A DNA stretch of 64,000 bases from assembly GCF_000384475.1 (NCBI RefSeq), contig NZ_ARWB01000001.1, positions 209,128 to 273,127 of the forward strand. The letters are read 5' to 3'. Positions 12,284 to 19,071 of the stretch are shown here, piece by piece (positions within the stretch are counted from its first letter, which is position 1; the number at the start of each line of letters is the position of its first letter). Below the pieces are notes generated by a model. It did no database searches and was not told the origin of the DNA. It was given only the letters and a program-made list of their open reading frames with translations. Source of the stretch: Methylopila sp. M107. GTDB taxonomy: Bacteria; Pseudomonadota; Alphaproteobacteria; Rhizobiales; Methylopilaceae. The position numbers and the translations under genes were made by a program.

Positions 12284-13498
12284 ATGTCCGACGCAGCTTT
12301 GCGCGCAAATCCCGCGCGAACCGAAGAGGGCGCCGGGCGGCTCGTCGTGCTGGCCTCCGCTGTCGCCTGCGGCGTCATCGTCGCGAACCTCTATTATGCT
12401 CAGCCGCTGGTCGACCTGATCGCGCGCGACCTCGGCATATCGGCGTCCGTCGGCAGCGCCGTGGTGGCGTTGACGCAGGTCGGCTACGCGATCGGGCTGA
12501 TCCTCGTCGCCCCGCTGGTCGATCTGTTCGAGAGCCGGCGGCTGCTCACCGTTACGCTCGCCTTCGCGGTCGCGGCGCTGCTGCTGGCCGCCTTCGCGCC
12601 GACCGGCGGCGTGTTCCTCGCCGCGGCGCTCTCGATCGGCGTCGCCTCGGTCGCGGCCCAAATGCTGCTGCCGCTCGTCGCCGGCATGGAGCCGGAGGCG
12701 ACGCGCGGGCGCGTCGTCGGGACCATCATGAGCGGCCTGCTGTTCGGCATCCTGCTGGCGCGTCCGGTCGCGGGCGTCATCGCGGACTGGTTCGGCTGGC
12801 GCGCCGTGTTCGGCCTGTCGGCGGCGCTCACCGTCGCGACGGCGCTTTCGCTCCGCGTGCTGATCCCGTCGCGACGTCCTGAAGGCGGCGTCGCCTATGG
12901 CGCGTTCCTCGGCTCGATGTGGGGGCTGCTCCGCGAGTACCCGCTGCTCCGGCGCCGGGCGCTTTACCAGGCGAGCCTGTTCGCGGCCTTTTCGATGTTC
13001 TGGACCGCCTCGCCGATGCGGCTTTCCGAGGCCTACGGCTGGTCGCACAGCCTGATCGGCCTGTTCGCGCTCGCCGGCGCCGGCGGCGCGCTGATCGCGC
13101 CGGTCGCAGGACGCTGGGCGGATGCGGGGCTGACCCGTCCGGGGACGCTGGCGGCGATCGCGAGCGTCGCGCTCGGCTTCGCGGTCGCCGGAAGCGACGG
13201 GCTCGCCGGCGCGGTCTGGATTGGCGTGGCGGCTCTGCTGTTCGGCGCGGTCGTGCTCGACATGGGCGTGCAGGCCAACATGATCTTCGGCCAGCGCACG
13301 ATCTACGGGCTGAACCCGGCGGCGCGCGGGCGGCTCAACGGGCTCTACGTCGCGACGCTGTTCCTCGGCGGCGCGTTCGGCTCGGCCATCACGAGCCCGC
13401 TGATGACGCATTTCGGCTGGGGCGCGACCGCCGCCGTCGGCGCGGCGCTGCCGCTCGTCGCGCTCGGCTTCGCCGCGATGGAGCGCGCGAGGGATTGA
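12284..13498 (+). CDS. MFS transporter (drug/sugar efflux type)
   Basis: A 404-residue major facilitator with twelve predicted membrane segments. The first is VLASAVACGVIVANLYYAQP and the second-third loop reads VDLFESRRLL. The NLYYAQP-LVDLIARDLGIS start is typical of the AraJ/YgaY-like proton-driven efflux permeases (DHA1 group). The frame stays open far upstream over the small membrane gene, but the ATG at 12284 begins the family N-terminus, so the upstream part is not coding. The substrate cannot be read from the sequence. It is convergent with the TetR gene (31 bases between stops), so any functional link to the methyltransferase unit is only positional. Confidence 0.88.
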   Translation: MSDAALRANPARTEEGAGRLVVLASAVACGVIVANLYYAQPLVDLIARDLGISASVGSAVVALTQVGYAIGLILVAPLVDLFESRRLLTVTLAFAVAALLLAAFAPTGGVFLAAALSIGVASVAAQMLLPLVAGMEPEATRGRVVGTIMSGLLFGILLARPVAGVIADWFGWRAVFGLSAALTVATALSLRVLIPSRRPEGGVAYGAFLGSMWGLLREYPLLRRRALYQASLFAAFSMFWTASPMRLSEAYGWSHSLIGLFALAGAGGALIAPVAGRWADAGLTRPGTLAAIASVALGFAVAGSDGLAGAVWIGVAALLFGAVVLDMGVQANMIFGQRTIYGLNPAARGRLNGLYVATLFLGGAFGSAITSPLMTHFGWGATAAVGAALPLVALGFAAMERARD

Positions 13499-13529
13499 GC
13501 GGCGGCGCCGCGTCGGGCCGCGCCGTTCG

Positions 13530-14324
13530 TCAAGCGTCGACGGTCGCCTCGTCCGATTTCGCGGGGAGCGTCGCGCCGAGCCAGAGCATGCTGCCCGCCC
13601 GACGGAGCACCGTCGAGATCGGCTCCGACGCGTCGCGGGGGTGTCTCGTGGTCAGGCACTGGTTGAGCCAGACCCCTTCGACCATGCTCGCCATCGCGCA
13701 GGCGAGGTCGGTCGCCGTCGCGCCCGGCCGGAACGTCAGGCCGAAATGGCCGACGGCGTCGCCGAGCAGCTTTTCGAGGCGGTCCACCCACTGGCGATGT
13801 TCATCGAGGCTGGGCGCGGCGATCTGCTGGCTCCACAGGCCGTAAGGAACGGCGCTGAGCCAGAGCGCCCACAGGAACGAATAGTCGTTGGTGGGATCGG
13901 CGCCATGGCGGGGGCCGCGGGCGGACTGGGCGGCGAACAGCGCGTCGACCCACGTGTCGGCGTCCGCAAAATCCGCGGGGTCGGGATAGGCGAGATCCCG
14001 CACGAGTTCGTTCGCGCCGAGCGCGAGCGCCATCGTTTCGGCCTGAAAGACCGCCTGGCTGCCGAACAGATTGGTGACGGAGCCGCGCGTCTTGCCGTCC
14101 CGCGCCGCGACCGCTCCCGCATCGAGCCGCGCGAACGGTCCGATGGCGAAGAGCTCGGCGTCGAGGCCTTGCGCTTCCGAATGGATCTGATCGAGCGCCG
14201 CGGCCACGCCGACCTCGACATAGCGCCGCTTGGCGTCCGCCTTGGCGAGCGTCGAACGCCCGCCTTTCCGCTGTCCCGAATCCATCGCCGCATCGTTACG
14301 TGCGGACCGTACGTATTCAAGCAT
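13530..14324 (-). CDS. TetR-family transcriptional regulator
   Basis: A 264-residue regulator with an N-terminal helix-turn-helix (GAVAARDGKTRGSVTNLFGSQ, about residues 69-89) and a variable ligand-binding C-terminal domain with the TetR-like end MASMVEGVWLNQCLTT. The recognition part is unusually far from the N-terminus because of an extra segment (LAKADAKRRYVEVGVAAALD). ATG 14324 has GGAG only 3 bases upstream. An internal ATG at 14285 has no ribosome site but would place the palindrome at 14297-14315 outside the coding region, so the start is uncertain. The gene is divergent from the membrane methyltransferase gene, and two similar palindromes lie between, which makes autorepression and control of the methyltransferase the natural reading. 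The ligand is unknown. Confidence 0.82.
   Translation of the reverse strand: MLEYVRSARNDAAMDSGQRKGGRSTLAKADAKRRYVEVGVAAALDQIHSEAQGLDAELFAIGPFARLDAGAVAARDGKTRGSVTNLFGSQAVFQAETMALALGANELVRDLAYPDPADFADADTWVDALFAAQSARGPRHGADPTNDYSFLWALWLSAVPYGLWSQQIAAPSLDEHRQWVDRLEKLLGDAVGHFGLTFRPGATATDLACAMASMVEGVWLNQCLTTRHPRDASEPISTVLRRAGSMLWLGATLPAKSDEATVDA
14297..14315. promoter_or_regulatory. Predicted TetR operator 1 (19-bp palindrome)
   Basis: TACGTGCGG-A-CCGTACGTA: the 9-base arms match at 8 of 9 positions around a central A. It shares 16 of 19 bases with a second site at 14357-14375. It overlaps the 5' end of the TetR gene in its long form, or lies 11 bases upstream of the short form. Palindrome length, pairing and position in a divergent TetR intergenic region support an operator. 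Confidence 0.75.
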
Positions 14325-14356
14325 TGACTCCAGCAGCGCTCGGCGCGAAGGTTGAT

Positions 14357-14375
14357 TACGTACGTACGGTACGTA
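14357..14375. promoter_or_regulatory. Predicted TetR operator 2 (19-bp palindrome)
   Basis: TACGTACGTACGGTACGTA lies 60 bp centre to centre from operator 1 and 20 bases before the methyltransferase ATG. It contains a perfect 7-1-7 inverted repeat (14361-14375). The shared consensus TACGTRCGKACSGTACGTA is far from the local base composition, which supports a real protein-binding site. Confidence 0.75.
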
Positions 14376-14395
14376 TCTAAAAATGGGGGCGTCGC

Positions 14396-15736
14396 ATGGC
14401 TTGCCGCGGTCCCGAGTCCGAAGCGGGCGCGATCGCTCGCCGCAGCCGCCTGGGTGGCCTGTCGCCCTTGAAGCGCTGGAGCGCGACGGTCGCAGCCACG
14501 GCGATCTCGATCTACATCCTCGACGTCGTCGCGACGCTTTCTGGCGTCGCTCTCGTGGCGTCGGGTTTGCTTCATCGCCTCGACCTGCTGGGCGTCTCGG
14601 TTTTTCTGGCGGCCAGCTATGTCGTCTGGGGCTTTGGACTGCGCGAGGCGCTCAAGGCCAACTGGAATCTGCTCGAAACGACTGGAACCAGCACCAACAT
14701 CGTCTCGAAGGCCGCCCATGATCTGGCGCTCCGTTACAGCGGCGGCGAAACCGTTCGGCGGCTCGCAAGCGGCGCAGGCTATGTCGTCGTCGAACTGGCC
14801 AAGGAGGCGCCCTATTACGCCGGCGCCTTTGGGGCGGCCGCGTTCAGCGAGACGATCTCGTCGCGGGAGGCGCTGATCTTTCTCTGCGGCGCCAACCTCG
14901 GCGCCGCTTGCTACGAACTTGGACTGGCCTGGGCGACGCGATCCTGCCTCGCCGGATCGACGTATGCGTCCTTCGAGCAGGACTGGTCGCCCGCGGATTA
15001 TCTCGCGCAGTACTACGCCGCGGTCGAGCCCGACGAGCGGCGCACCATCGCCTTCCTGGTCGACGCGGTGAGGTCGTCGCCGGCGACCGGCCCCGTGCTG
15101 TTCTTCGGGGTCGGGCCGACGCTGCATCATGTCTTCAGCGTCGCGCACCGGGCGTCCGAGATTCACCTCGGCGACTACCTCGGTCCGAACCTTCGCGAGA
15201 TCGAACGCTGGATCGACGAGCGGCCGGACGCGCACGACTGGCGACAGTTCGTACGCTACACCTTGCAATGCGAGGGCCTGGCGGCGCCGACGGAGCGCGA
15301 CGTGCTGCGTCGCGAGGCGCTGACGCGTGCGAAGATAACGGAATTGATGGAGGTCGACCTCCGGCGGCCGACGCCGCTCGGCGAGCGGCGCGGCCTGCGT
15401 TACGGCATGGTGATCAGCGCCTATTGCGCGGACTCGATCACTTCCGACCGCGAGACCTGGGAAATCTATATGGGCCGGATCGCGGAGCTCGTTTCGGATG
15501 GCGGCGTGCTGATCACCGCCGCCCTGCGCGGCGCGAGACATTACAGGATCGGCGAGAAGTCGTTTCCGAGCGCGAACGTTGACGAATTCGACGTCCGGGC
15601 CGTGCTCGAACGATTTTGCGACCCGCAGGACATCCGAATAGAAGCCTGCGACGTGCCGGGATGCGCTCGCCAGGGATATGGCGGCATCGTCCTGGCGAGA
15701 GCGCGGATCAGACGGGTCTTGTCCGAGGCGGCTTGA
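14396..15736 (+). CDS. Membrane-anchored methyltransferase of the NNMT/GntF type
   Basis: A 446-residue two-part protein. Residues 28-83 hold two hydrophobic segments (WSATVAATAISIYILDVVAT; LDLLGVSVFLAASYVVWGFG). Residues 139-187 hold one or two more (YYAGAFGAAAF; ALIFLCGANLGAACYELGLA). From about residue 200 a class I SAM-dependent methyltransferase domain follows, resembling nicotinamide/phenylethanolamine N-methyltransferases and the bacterial pre-guanitoxin enzyme GntF. It has DYLAQYY, the SAM loop VLFFGVGPTLHHV (234-246), an acidic motif II (IHLGDYLGPNLREIERW), HDWRQFVRYTLQCEG, and the family end SFPSANVDEFDVRAVL. The substrate is unknown, with small amines or pyridines being typical of the family. 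ATG 14396 has GGGGG 6 bases upstream. It is divergent from a TetR gene. The fusion of a membrane domain to this catalytic family is unusual to me. Confidence 0.75.
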   Translation: MACRGPESEAGAIARRSRLGGLSPLKRWSATVAATAISIYILDVVATLSGVALVASGLLHRLDLLGVSVFLAASYVVWGFGLREALKANWNLLETTGTSTNIVSKAAHDLALRYSGGETVRRLASGAGYVVVELAKEAPYYAGAFGAAAFSETISSREALIFLCGANLGAACYELGLAWATRSCLAGSTYASFEQDWSPADYLAQYYAAVEPDERRTIAFLVDAVRSSPATGPVLFFGVGPTLHHVFSVAHRASEIHLGDYLGPNLREIERWIDERPDAHDWRQFVRYTLQCEGLAAPTERDVLRREALTRAKITELMEVDLRRPTPLGERRGLRYGMVISAYCADSITSDRETWEIYMGRIAELVSDGGVLITAALRGARHYRIGEKSFPSANVDEFDVRAVLERFCDPQDIRIEACDVPGCARQGYGGIVLARARIRRVLSEAA

Positions 15737-15770
15737 GCCGGTCAGTCCCCGACTTGCAAGACCCGTCTGA
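15708..15770. terminator. Perfect 14-bp inverted repeat at the end of the methyltransferase gene
   Basis: TCAGACGGGTCTTG at 15708-15721 pairs perfectly with CAAGACCCGTCTGA at 15757-15770, with a 35-base loop. The left arm lies inside the last codons of the methyltransferase gene and the right arm lies 12 bases from the end of the convergent gene. It is well placed as a bidirectional terminator but lacks T-runs. Confidence 0.6.
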
Positions 15771-15782
15771 GGACCGCGCGAC

Positions 15783-16319
15783 TTAGTCGTCGGAGTCCGA
15801 TGAGCGGACCAGCACCGCCTTGACGTTGGAGACCAGCCGTCCGCCCTGCTTGTCACCGGCCACAATCAGGCGCGCCATGCCTTCGCTCTTGTCCAGCGCG
15901 TCGCCATCCTCGGTCTGATAGGCGATCAGCACCTGCTGCGCGCCGAAGTTCGGCAGAAGGTCGGCCACCGCGATGACCGACTCGTAGCAGTCGGTCGCGC
16001 GGACGGAGACGTACTTCCTGAGGATGTCGTTCCGCTGGCTGGGGTTGGTCTTGACCTCGGCGGCGTTGAGCAGGTCGATCAGCGGCACGCCCACATAGGT
16101 CTTGGTCACAAGTCCCGCGCTGCCCGAAAAATAGGTCACCGTGACGCGCGAGGACGGCAGCTTCTTCAGGTCCGCCAGCTTGAACGTCGCGGGCGTCTTA
16201 ACATGTCCCTTGAGGCGAAAGCCGTCCGAGAAGCCGCCCGGACAGGATTGCGCCTGCGCGGCGCCGGTCAGGAGAAGGGTTGCGAGCGCAATTGCGCCAG
16301 CTGCGCGACAGGGCGTCAT
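15783..16319 (-). CDS. Periplasmic molybdopterin-domain protein (sulfite-oxidase fold)
   Basis: A 178-residue protein starting at ATG 16319, with GGGAG 6 bases upstream; the frame is open 16 codons further but without support. Residues 1-23 form a signal peptide (AIALATLLLTGAAQAQ). The mature part resembles the oxidoreductase molybdopterin-binding domain (FRLKGHVKTPATFKLADLKKLP, VTYFSGSAGLVTKTYVGVPL, YESVIAVADLLPNFG). Its size is that of the stand-alone domain versions, which may or may not still bind a cofactor. It ends convergent with the methyltransferase gene and is divergent from trmJ across 237 bases, where I see no clear regulatory site. Confidence 0.7.
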   Translation of the reverse strand: MTPCRAAGAIALATLLLTGAAQAQSCPGGFSDGFRLKGHVKTPATFKLADLKKLPSSRVTVTYFSGSAGLVTKTYVGVPLIDLLNAAEVKTNPSQRNDILRKYVSVRATDCYESVIAVADLLPNFGAQQVLIAYQTEDGDALDKSEGMARLIVAGDKQGGRLVSNVKAVLVRSSDSDD

Positions 16320-16556
16320 GGTCAGCTCCCGGAGAGGATGGGGTGTCGCCGCCCCGCCGGGTCGCACAGACCGGGCGTGAGCAGGGCGAAGGGTGACGCC
16401 GCCGCGCTGTCGCCATAATCCGGTCGGCGCGCACAGGGTGTCAACTCGTCACAAGTCTTAAGGCCGCGCGTGGGCGGCCCGTCGTCGCTCGCCCTGGAGG
16501 TTCGCGCCGGCCTCGGTCCCGTGCTATCGGGCCGCCACGCCAAGCAGGGGGCCGCG

Positions 16557-17390
16557 ATGGCCGGAACCGACCGCACCAAGACCGACCTCGCCGCGAGCCT
16601 CACGCCCGGCCCGGTCATCATCCTTGTCGAGCCGCAGCTCGCCGAAAACGTCGGCTCGGTCGCGCGCGCCATGGCGAATTTCGCGCTGTCGGAGCTGCGC
16701 GTCGTGCGCGGCCGGGCGCAGGCGGACGGAGAGAAGGCGAGGATCGTCGCCGCCGGAGCGCACCATGTCATCGACGCCGCCCGACATTTCGACCGGGTCG
16801 AGGACGCGCTGGCGGACCTCACTTTGGTGATCGCCACCACGGCGCGCACGCGCGAGCAGGCGAAGCCCGTGGAGGCCCCGGCGACGGCGGCCGCGCGGAT
16901 CGTGGCGGAGACGGCGGACGGCGGCCGCGCCGGCGTCATGTTCGGGCGCGAGCGCACGGGCCTCGAGAACGACGAGATTTCGCTCGCCCACCGGGTCGTC
17001 ACCTTCCCGGTGAACCCGGCCTATGCCAGCCTCAACCTCGCGCAGGCGGTGCTGCTGGTTGGCTACGAATGGTTCAAGGCCGCGACCGGCGGCGCGCCGA
17101 ACTTCGAGCTGCCGGTCCGCTCGCCGCCCGCCACCCATGACGAGATCTTCGCGCTGTTCGCCCATCTCGAGGGCGAGCTCCGCGAGGGCGGCTTCTTCCG
17201 CTCTCCGGAGAAGAGCGCCTCGATGGTGCGCAATATCCGCAACATGATCCACCGCATGGACCCGAGCCTGCAGGACATTCGCACGCTGCACGGCATGGTC
17301 GCGGCGCTGGTCGGCGGCCGGCCAGGGCCCGAGGGCCGCGGGCGGACGGTGCTGAAACCGCTCGTCGAACCGGAGGGCGGCGACGCCTGA
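16557..17390 (+). CDS. trmJ: tRNA/rRNA 2'-O-methyltransferase, TrmJ type
   Basis: A SPOUT-class RNA methyltransferase of 277 residues. The N-terminal half has PVIILVEPQLAENVGSVARAM and the SAM-knot motifs MFGRERTGLENDEISLAH and FPVNPAYASLNLAQAVLLV, which match TrmJ (methylates ribose of nucleotide 32 in tRNAs). The C-terminal part (EIFALFAHLEGELREGGFF...RNMIHRMDPSLQDIRTLHG) fits the TrmJ dimer extension. The start at 16557 is preceded by AGGGG; a longer frame from 16470 lacks support. It lies 10 bases from the end of the convergent chemoreceptor gene. Exact nucleotide specificity is inferred from family. Confidence 0.88.
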   Translation: MAGTDRTKTDLAASLTPGPVIILVEPQLAENVGSVARAMANFALSELRVVRGRAQADGEKARIVAAGAHHVIDAARHFDRVEDALADLTLVIATTARTREQAKPVEAPATAAARIVAETADGGRAGVMFGRERTGLENDEISLAHRVVTFPVNPAYASLNLAQAVLLVGYEWFKAATGGAPNFELPVRSPPATHDEIFALFAHLEGELREGGFFRSPEKSASMVRNIRNMIHRMDPSLQDIRTLHGMVAALVGGRPGPEGRGRTVLKPLVEPEGGDA

Positions 17391-17400
17391 GGCGTTCGGC

Positions 17401-19071
17401 TCAGGCGGCGCGGACCTTGACGAGATACGAGCCGACCTGATCGCGCAGCGTTGCTGCCTGTCCCGCGAGCGCGTCGGCGGCCGAGAGGATCGCGCCCGCG
17501 ACTTCGCCGGTGCGCCGGGCCGAGGCCGCGACGGAGCCGACGTTCTCGGAGGCCTGTCGCGCGCCGACGGAGGCGTATTCGACGTTGCGCGCGATCTCGG
17601 TGGTGGCTTCTCGCTGCTGCGAGACCGAAACGGCGATCATGTTCGAGATCGAGGCGACTTCCGAGATCGTCTCGGTGATCGAGCGGATCGAGACAACGAC
17701 CTGGTCGGTCGCGGCCTGCACCGACTTGATCTTTTCGGCGATGTCGCCGGTGGCGCGGGTGGTCTGGTCGGCGAGGCCCTTCACTTCGGTCGCGACGACC
17801 GCGAAGCCGCGGCCCGCCTCGCCGGCGCGCGCCGCCTCGATGGTGGCGTTGAGCGCGAGCAGGTTGGTCTGGCCGGCGATGTCGTTGATCAGCTTGACGA
17901 CTTCGCTGATCTGCGCGGCGGTCGCGGCCAGATCGGTCACCAGCCGGCCCGCGGCCGCCGCCTGTTCGCTCGCGCGGTCTCCGATCTTCGCGGCGGAGGC
18001 CACGCGTTCGCTGATCTCGCTGATCGAGGCGGAAAGCTCCTCGGCTCCGGCGGCGGCCCCGCGGACGTTTTCGGCCGTCATAGAGGAGGCGTCGGCTGCG
18101 GCTGCGAATCTTGCGTCGGCGTCGGTCGCGGTTTCGCCCATCGAGGCCGCGTCCGTGCGCAGCATCTGCGCCGCGCCTGCGATCTGCTGCACCACTTCCA
18201 AGACTTCCGCCTCGAGGTCGCTCGCCATGCCGGCCAGCGCGTTCCGTCGCGCCGCCTCGGACTGGCCGGCGGACCGCTCCTTTTCGAGCCTCAGCTGCGC
18301 CATCGCCACAGCGTTCTCGCGGAACACGCCGACCGCCGTCGCCATCCGGCCGATCTCGTCGCGCCGGCCGGCGCCCGGGATCGCGAAGTCGAGGCGATCG
18401 GCTGCGAGTTCGCGCATGACCTCCGTCATACGGGAGATCGGGCGGATGACGCCGACCAGCGCGAGGCCGCAGACCGCGAGCACGGCCGCCGCCGCCGCCG
18501 CGCAGGACGCGACGAGGATCCAGAACACGCTCGTCTCCAGGGATTTCGCCTGGGTCTCGATGCGGGAGGCCTCGGCCTCCAGAGCGTCGGTGAAGGCCGC
18601 CATGTCGGTCTCGAGCGCGGAAAAGGCCTTATCGAACGCGGGAAGGCCGGCGATCGCGTCCTTTCGGTCGGCGAAGGCGCGCGCGACGAGATCCTGCGCG
18701 ACCGCGCCGTAGCTCGAGAGCGGCTGAGCCAGCGCATCGAGGCGAGCGCGCAGGCCGGGTTCGAGACCGAGCTTCGAATTGGCTTCGATCGCGCTGTGGA
18801 ACGTCGCCAGATGCTCCTTCATGTCCGCAAGCGACTGGTCGCGGGGCTCGCCGCGCTCGGCGGCGCTCAGCGCGACATAGACGTCCGCTCGCAGCGCGTC
18901 GTGCATCATGTCGGCCTGGCCCTGGTTGCTGAGCGCCAGCGTGATGCGCGTCGTGTCGCTCGCGCTCCGCGTCAGTTCCGCGTTGCTCCAGACGCCGATC
19001 CCCCCGAGGCCGATGACAGCCAACATCAGAAAGGCGGCTGCGATCACGAACCGCGAACGAAGGGACGACAT
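17401..19071 (-). CDS. Methyl-accepting chemotaxis protein
   Basis: A 556-residue transmembrane chemoreceptor. Membrane segments lie at about 9-29 and 182-206. The periplasmic helical sensor domain between them (about 150 residues) has no recognisable ligand motif. A HAMP linker follows ([19 protein letters not shown]), then the long signalling domain with the hairpin-tip motif [20 protein letters not shown] and [20 protein letters not shown], which is highly conserved. No C-terminal pentapeptide for CheR docking is visible. It is convergent with trmJ and divergent from purB. The receptor fits the flagellar genes at the left of the window. Confidence 0.93.

Follow-up and report, generated by a model that had tools for sequence, protein, structure and literature searches.

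A predicted membrane protein fused to an NNMT-type methyltransferase domain, beside a TetR-like regulator, in Methylopila sp. M107

The window analysed here, a 64,000-nucleotide stretch of the Methylopila sp. M107 genome, carries at 14396..15736 (+) a gene that, as read from its sequence, joins an NNMT-type enzyme to a membrane protein that is itself rare. Our best explanation, which we hold tentatively and with slightly less than even confidence, is that its product is an inducible, inner-membrane-anchored, SAM-dependent methyltransferase for lipophilic small molecules, repressed by the TetR-like protein encoded next to it. If this reading is true, it adds a membrane-tethered member to a methyltransferase family usually known as soluble small-molecule enzymes. 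The repressor and its two candidate operators would further give a genetic handle on the inducer, and hence on the substrate, and the fusion may reveal the function of an unnamed membrane protein family.

A sequence-only reading of this DNA had proposed a TetR-controlled, membrane-tethered methyltransferase of the NNMT/GntF type. What it had observed is confirmed as a whole: the open reading frame of 446 residues at 14396 is present and intact, all three of the methyltransferase motifs that it quoted are found in the product, and the methyltransferase domain, membrane segments and palindromes are there. Its interpretation stood as regards the enzyme family, the membrane half and a regulator with operator-like palindromes, but not as regards GntF function or nicotinamide. 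According to the ORF list and codon-position GC, a single uninterrupted frame encodes all 446 amino acids. Third-position GC is coding-like (0.72-0.92) along the whole gene, with no break where the halves meet, which rules out a frame-shift artefact as the source of the fusion. Residues 191-406 (14966..15613, +) were recognised as an NNMT/PNMT/TEMT methyltransferase domain by Pfam (PF01234), NCBIfam and PDB matches. For residues 1-190 (14396..14965, +) searches gave no match in Pfam (E up to 10), NCBIfam or the PDB; this membrane module is homologous to stand-alone proteins of two other genomes. The fusion gene is present in one copy in the genome (one contig, 4.45 Mb).

Profile searches for PF01234 (E up to 0.001) found the domain in 6 of 387 genomes of the order, 3 of 240 of the class and 3 of 299 of the phylum, the widest rank covered; these samples overlap, and each includes the window's own genome. 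In the five other genomes of the order the matching open frames are 277-303 aa long, and hence too short to hold a fused membrane half. Weaker candidates were discarded. Outside the order, matches in G403 (252-aa open frame) and G732 (329 aa) pass the PF01234 cutoff only with their pieces summed, and that in G588 (284 aa) is below it. The frame of G846 (589 aa) is also below the cutoff; it is generic methyltransferase-like, its first part is overlapped by the ORF of another gene, and we see no comparable fusion in it. None of these four matches has the architecture of the window gene. No second fusion of this architecture was seen in the order, class and phylum samples, no relative of the whole fusion protein was found in genome contigs, and no membrane-fused PF01234 member appears in the titles and abstract openings of the literature matches listed. 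To the extent that tblastn can show it, a phage or plasmid origin was rejected, there being no match in phages (E 1e-2) or plasmids (E 1e-3). Scans of viral contigs gave nothing useful, and the best PHROGs match had an E value of 0.11. A match in a Streptomyces plasmid turned out to be a homologue of L018, a PF01234 protein of the order, and not of the fusion protein. The occurrence of the fusion in one genome would suit a chance or decaying junction without function. We consider this quite improbable, given that the frame is intact, the composition is coding throughout, and the SAM residues, the regulator and the palindromes have all been kept.

The methyltransferase half scores 111.9 bits against PF01234 (cutoff 25). 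Its relatives in the PDB are NNMT, PNMT and INMT, the best chain being 5xvq_A (E 8.6e-19), for which the chain number minus 20 was taken as the NNMT number, in agreement with the residues named in papers. The alignment shows that NNMT Y20, Y24, Y25, G63, G65, P66, T67, D85, N90, D142, D167 and Y204 are retained; apart from G65, P66 and T67, most of these have SAM or substrate roles in the family. Other positions have changed (S64 to Val, Y69 to His, L164 to Tyr, A168 to Ser, D197 to Ala and S201 to Ala), and D61 aligns to a gap. By this alignment, most of the SAM site is kept, as is the catalytic acid (NNMT D167), and the nicotinamide contact is lost. The counterpart of D197 is Ala 376 of the fusion protein, which is hence not an NNMT orthologue. 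One study reports D197 and Y20 of NNMT as indispensable for methylating nicotinamide (PMC8956669). Nicotinamide, which the sequence-only reading had named among the compounds to assay, is therefore an unlikely substrate, and we rejected it as the likely one. For INMT, a further study reports E167 as essential to methylation; NNMT has Asp at this position and PNMT has Glu (PMC10844679).

Among NCBIfam models, the best match is that of GntF (NF041360), with 90.2 bits for the whole protein and 92.4 bits for the domain on its own, both above the cutoff of 60. This score is what speaks for a role like that of GntF, as a guanidine N-methyltransferase in the making of a natural product, which we nevertheless hold to be extremely unlikely. 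The match spans model positions 25-239 of 273, a membrane module is fused to the domain, and the flanking genes scanned (icd, trmJ, genes for an MFS transporter and an Oxidored_molyb protein, and a small unassigned ORF) do not make up a gnt cluster, with no gnt gene recognised among them. Of the proposed NNMT/GntF type, the family of the C-terminal half is thus borne out by PF01234 and the PDB, but GntF-type function is not, since no gnt gene was recognised among the neighbours scanned and the architecture differs. Membership of the SCO2525 family (NF040568) was likewise rejected, the fusion protein scoring 49.2 bits against a cutoff of 240.

Membrane anchoring of the fusion protein is well supported by its predicted features. 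Hydropathy and comparison of three homologues (the window protein and two stand-alone proteins) point to candidate helices TM1 (residues 32-55, 14489..14560, +), which contains the conserved D43, TM2 (residues 64-82, 14585..14641, +), and a marginal TM4 (residues 158-180, 14867..14935, +) with conserved N167 and E174. Candidate TM3 (residues 126-150, 14771..14845, +), with conserved E133, K136 and E137, lies below the hydropathy threshold in the window protein. The positive loop between TM2 and TM3 (residues 83-125, 14642..14770, +) is predicted to be cytoplasmic and contains conserved NWxLLETTG and SKAA motifs. In the window protein the N-terminal segments above the threshold are 37-55, 64-82 and 160-178; the 126-150 region is below it there and in L003, and L002 alone has an overlapping peak that exceeds it. 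An approximate insertion-energy scale puts the first two segments close to zero or under it and rates 160-178 as unfavourable (+1.76). The hydropathy threshold is not strict, being exceeded by two stretches in the methyltransferase half as well, and by itself proves little. With segment borders placed by hand, counts of K+R in the N-tail, loops 1 to 3 and C-linker are 6, 1, 6, 1 and 1 in the window protein, 4, 1, 7, 1 and 7 in the homologue of G008, and 4, 0, 7, 0 and 4 in that of G021. This conserved positive-inside pattern favours an N-in/C-in arrangement, and hence a cytoplasmic enzyme domain. The predicted topology suggests four helices, two of which (TM3 and TM4) are marginal, with the enzyme on the cytoplasmic side. 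The earlier claim of about four N-terminal membrane segments therefore holds for the membrane nature of the region and for a topology fitting four, but the fourth segment (126-150) remains under the hydropathy threshold in the window protein. An AlphaFold model of the N-terminal half, built from two sequences, is all helical, with long helices at 24-58, 64-96, 118-150 and 156-193; its low confidence (mean pLDDT 51.9) gives it little weight.

Among 61 genomes (the window's own and 60 relatives), the module was found as a stand-alone protein in Chenggangzhangella methanolivorans CHL1 (G008; open frame of 241 aa, protein at L008:4809-5456) and in G021 (open frame of 275 aa), with core identities to the N-terminal half of 53% and 57%, respectively. 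C. methanolivorans (Hyphomicrobiales, Methylopilaceae) is grouped in the same genus as the window genome, and G021 belongs to another family, in which it is the only one of four genomes to have the module. Across 397 genomes of the order the module is present in three, namely these two and the window's own. Across 337 genomes of the class, the window's own was joined by one match (G442/L010, E 2.4e-4) that we took as chance, as it lies in an ORF that is MFS-like by eye. A profile search of genome contigs with the module recovered only the Chenggangzhangella copy and missed that of G021. The Chenggangzhangella copy, although from the same genus, is slightly less similar to the window module than that of G021, and the neighbours of these stand-alone genes differ, which hints that the gene is mobile or often lost. 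In G021, the module gene adjoins a PLD-domain gene (L015 7611-9979), and a gene that is TerC-like by eye lies nearby.

A PF01234 match was sought in the G008 and G021 genomes and none was found. The module therefore has a role there without the methyltransferase, and a function as anchor only may be the wrong description. The charged residues D43, E133, K136, E137 and E174 are invariant across the three homologues and lie inside candidate helices, as does the conserved N167; a mere anchor role does not explain such charges. They fit a module that is a transporter or sensor, its fusion linking methylation of a compound to taking it up or sensing it, as does the occurrence of the module alone in genomes with no methyltransferase-family match. 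Nonetheless, the invariance rests on three sequences only, and a transporter of four short helices would be a small one, barring oligomerisation; we consider this explanation unlikely. Similarly doubtful in our view is the broader proposal of a novel membrane protein family, with conserved charges in its helices, whose substrate is a lipophilic metabolite or toxin and which, once fused in one lineage, would channel that substrate to the methyltransferase.

Upstream of the fusion gene and divergent from it lies a gene for a TetR-like regulator (13530..14285, -; 251 aa from an internal ATG). Its ORF extends to 14324, a start that would place the first palindrome inside the gene, so we prefer a start at 14285, where there is an in-frame ATG. 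The regulator scores 23.4 and 23.6 bits against TetR_C_6 (cutoff 27), and a helix-turn-helix can be read by eye; searches gave no TetR_N match and no PDB match. The divergent TetR gene of the sequence-only reading is hence real as a local regulator gene, but is TetR-like only by a match under the cutoff and by that helix-turn-helix. No homologue of the regulator was found in plasmids or, besides the own genome, in nine relatives. The two related palindromes that had been proposed are present, at 19 bp each: O1, TACGTGCGGACCGTACGTA (14297..14315), and O2, TACGTACGTACGGTACGTA (14357..14375), identified by repeat and pattern searches. They sit in a pair of 21-nt repeats, 86% identical and 60 bp apart, and with the regulator starting at 14285 both fall inside the 110-bp intergenic gap. 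Allowing up to three mismatches, a degenerate pattern gives six matches in the window, all in this gap, that correspond to three places (two of them overlapping) on both strands; 0.25 were expected and 0 of 100 shuffles reached six, but since the pattern was written from O1 and O2, independent evidence comes from just the second site and the count across the genome. Genome-wide, the pattern occurs without mismatch only at O1 and O2. With up to two mismatches one further place appears (1959827), which is comparable to what the reversed-pattern control gives (one forward, three reverse). A sigma-70-type promoter was sought in 13400-15900 and none was found. Regulation of the fusion gene by the neighbouring TetR-like protein is plausible.

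The regulator and the fusion gene belong to an accessory block of ~3.0 kb (13499..16510, right edge approximate and placed by eye) that lies between an MFS gene and trmJ. The block also encodes an Oxidored_molyb (PF00174) protein (15783..16319, -; 39.9 bits, cutoff 24) with a signal peptide by eye, and contains no efflux gene. We compared the locus in 8 of 12 other genomes of the genus. The MFS gene and trmJ are neighbours in all eight, their matched ends lying no more than about 150 bp apart in seven and about 1.5 kb apart in one, and the block is missing in every case; the MFS gene is thus not part of it. In these eight stretches tblastn (E up to 1e-6) matched neither the regulator, nor either half of the fusion, nor the 15783 gene. 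GC content is 0.672 in the block versus 0.727 in the MFS gene and 0.718 in trmJ. Such patchiness favours acquisition of the block here over its loss elsewhere, although the locus data alone would fit both. One genus-mate (L041, G006:C4:241000-250500) has a different stretch of ~1.5 kb between MFS and trmJ, so this site may be an insertion hotspot. Beyond the block, a gene for a methyl-accepting chemotaxis protein by eye (17401-19071, -) parts trmJ from purB in the window; trmJ and purB are adjacent in the six of the eight genus-mate stretches that reach purB, and the chemotaxis gene is unmatched in all eight. The trmJ ORF (16470-17390, +) probably starts ~84 bases too far upstream, as most genus-mates are homologous to it only from about residue 29 onwards.

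The mechanism that we favour, an inducible membrane-anchored methyltransferase, would run as follows. The fused four-helix module would hold an enzyme of the NNMT/INMT/PNMT family to the inner membrane, on its cytoplasmic side. The TetR-like repressor would bind the two operators between the divergent genes, until the substrate or a similar lipophilic ligand dislodges it. Amphiphilic molecules partitioning into the membrane would then be N- or S/Se-methylated by the enzyme and so become harmless or able to exit the cell. From the DNA binding and induction to the activity, substrate class and detoxification role, these are steps that we infer. The account is weakened by the weak hydrophobicity of TM3 and TM4, the low pLDDT, the occurrence of the module alone elsewhere, the TetR match below cutoff, the lack of a sigma-70-type promoter in the region searched and that of an efflux gene in the block. 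Along with transport coupling, the main rival has a membrane aminolipid (for example ornithine lipid, phosphatidylethanolamine or an amino-hopanoid) as the substrate, methylated on its head group, the tether serving a lipid substrate and not detoxification. The family, to which the relatives NNMT and PNMT belong, usually methylates amines, the membrane module would bring the active site to the surface of the lipids, and a PLD-domain gene adjoins the stand-alone module gene of G021. That neighbour is seen in one genome only, however, and those in Chenggangzhangella (L008) differ; known family members act on small soluble molecules, and a dedicated repressor and an accessory location better suit an inducible response. 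We therefore judge a lipid substrate to be improbable.

Compared with the animal small-amine and chalcogen methyltransferases NNMT, INMT and PNMT, the fusion protein has in common the homologous domain, the pocket tyrosines, the GxGPT loop and the catalytic acid, and differs in its N-terminal membrane module and at D61, Y69, L164, D197 and S201. It resembles GntF, the N-methyltransferase of the guanitoxin pathway, in scoring above the NF041360 cutoff, but has a membrane module and lies in a regulator-linked accessory unit with no gnt gene among the neighbours scanned. To the SCO2525-family methyltransferases the homology is distant (49 bits). The SCO2525-like relative L018 is 25% identical to the fusion protein, and the loop that holds NNMT D167 contains an acid here too; L018 and L046, both PF01234 proteins of the order, come nearer to the NF040568 cutoff of 240 (187 and 202 bits) yet stay under it. 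The stand-alone proteins of Chenggangzhangella and G021 are homologous to the core of the module, but have no methyltransferase domain and other neighbours. Finally, PEMT, ICMT and MddA are integral-membrane methyltransferases for lipophilic or volatile substrates. In these enzymes the catalytic site lies within the membrane protein, whereas in the fusion protein a domain of the soluble type is attached to a membrane module.
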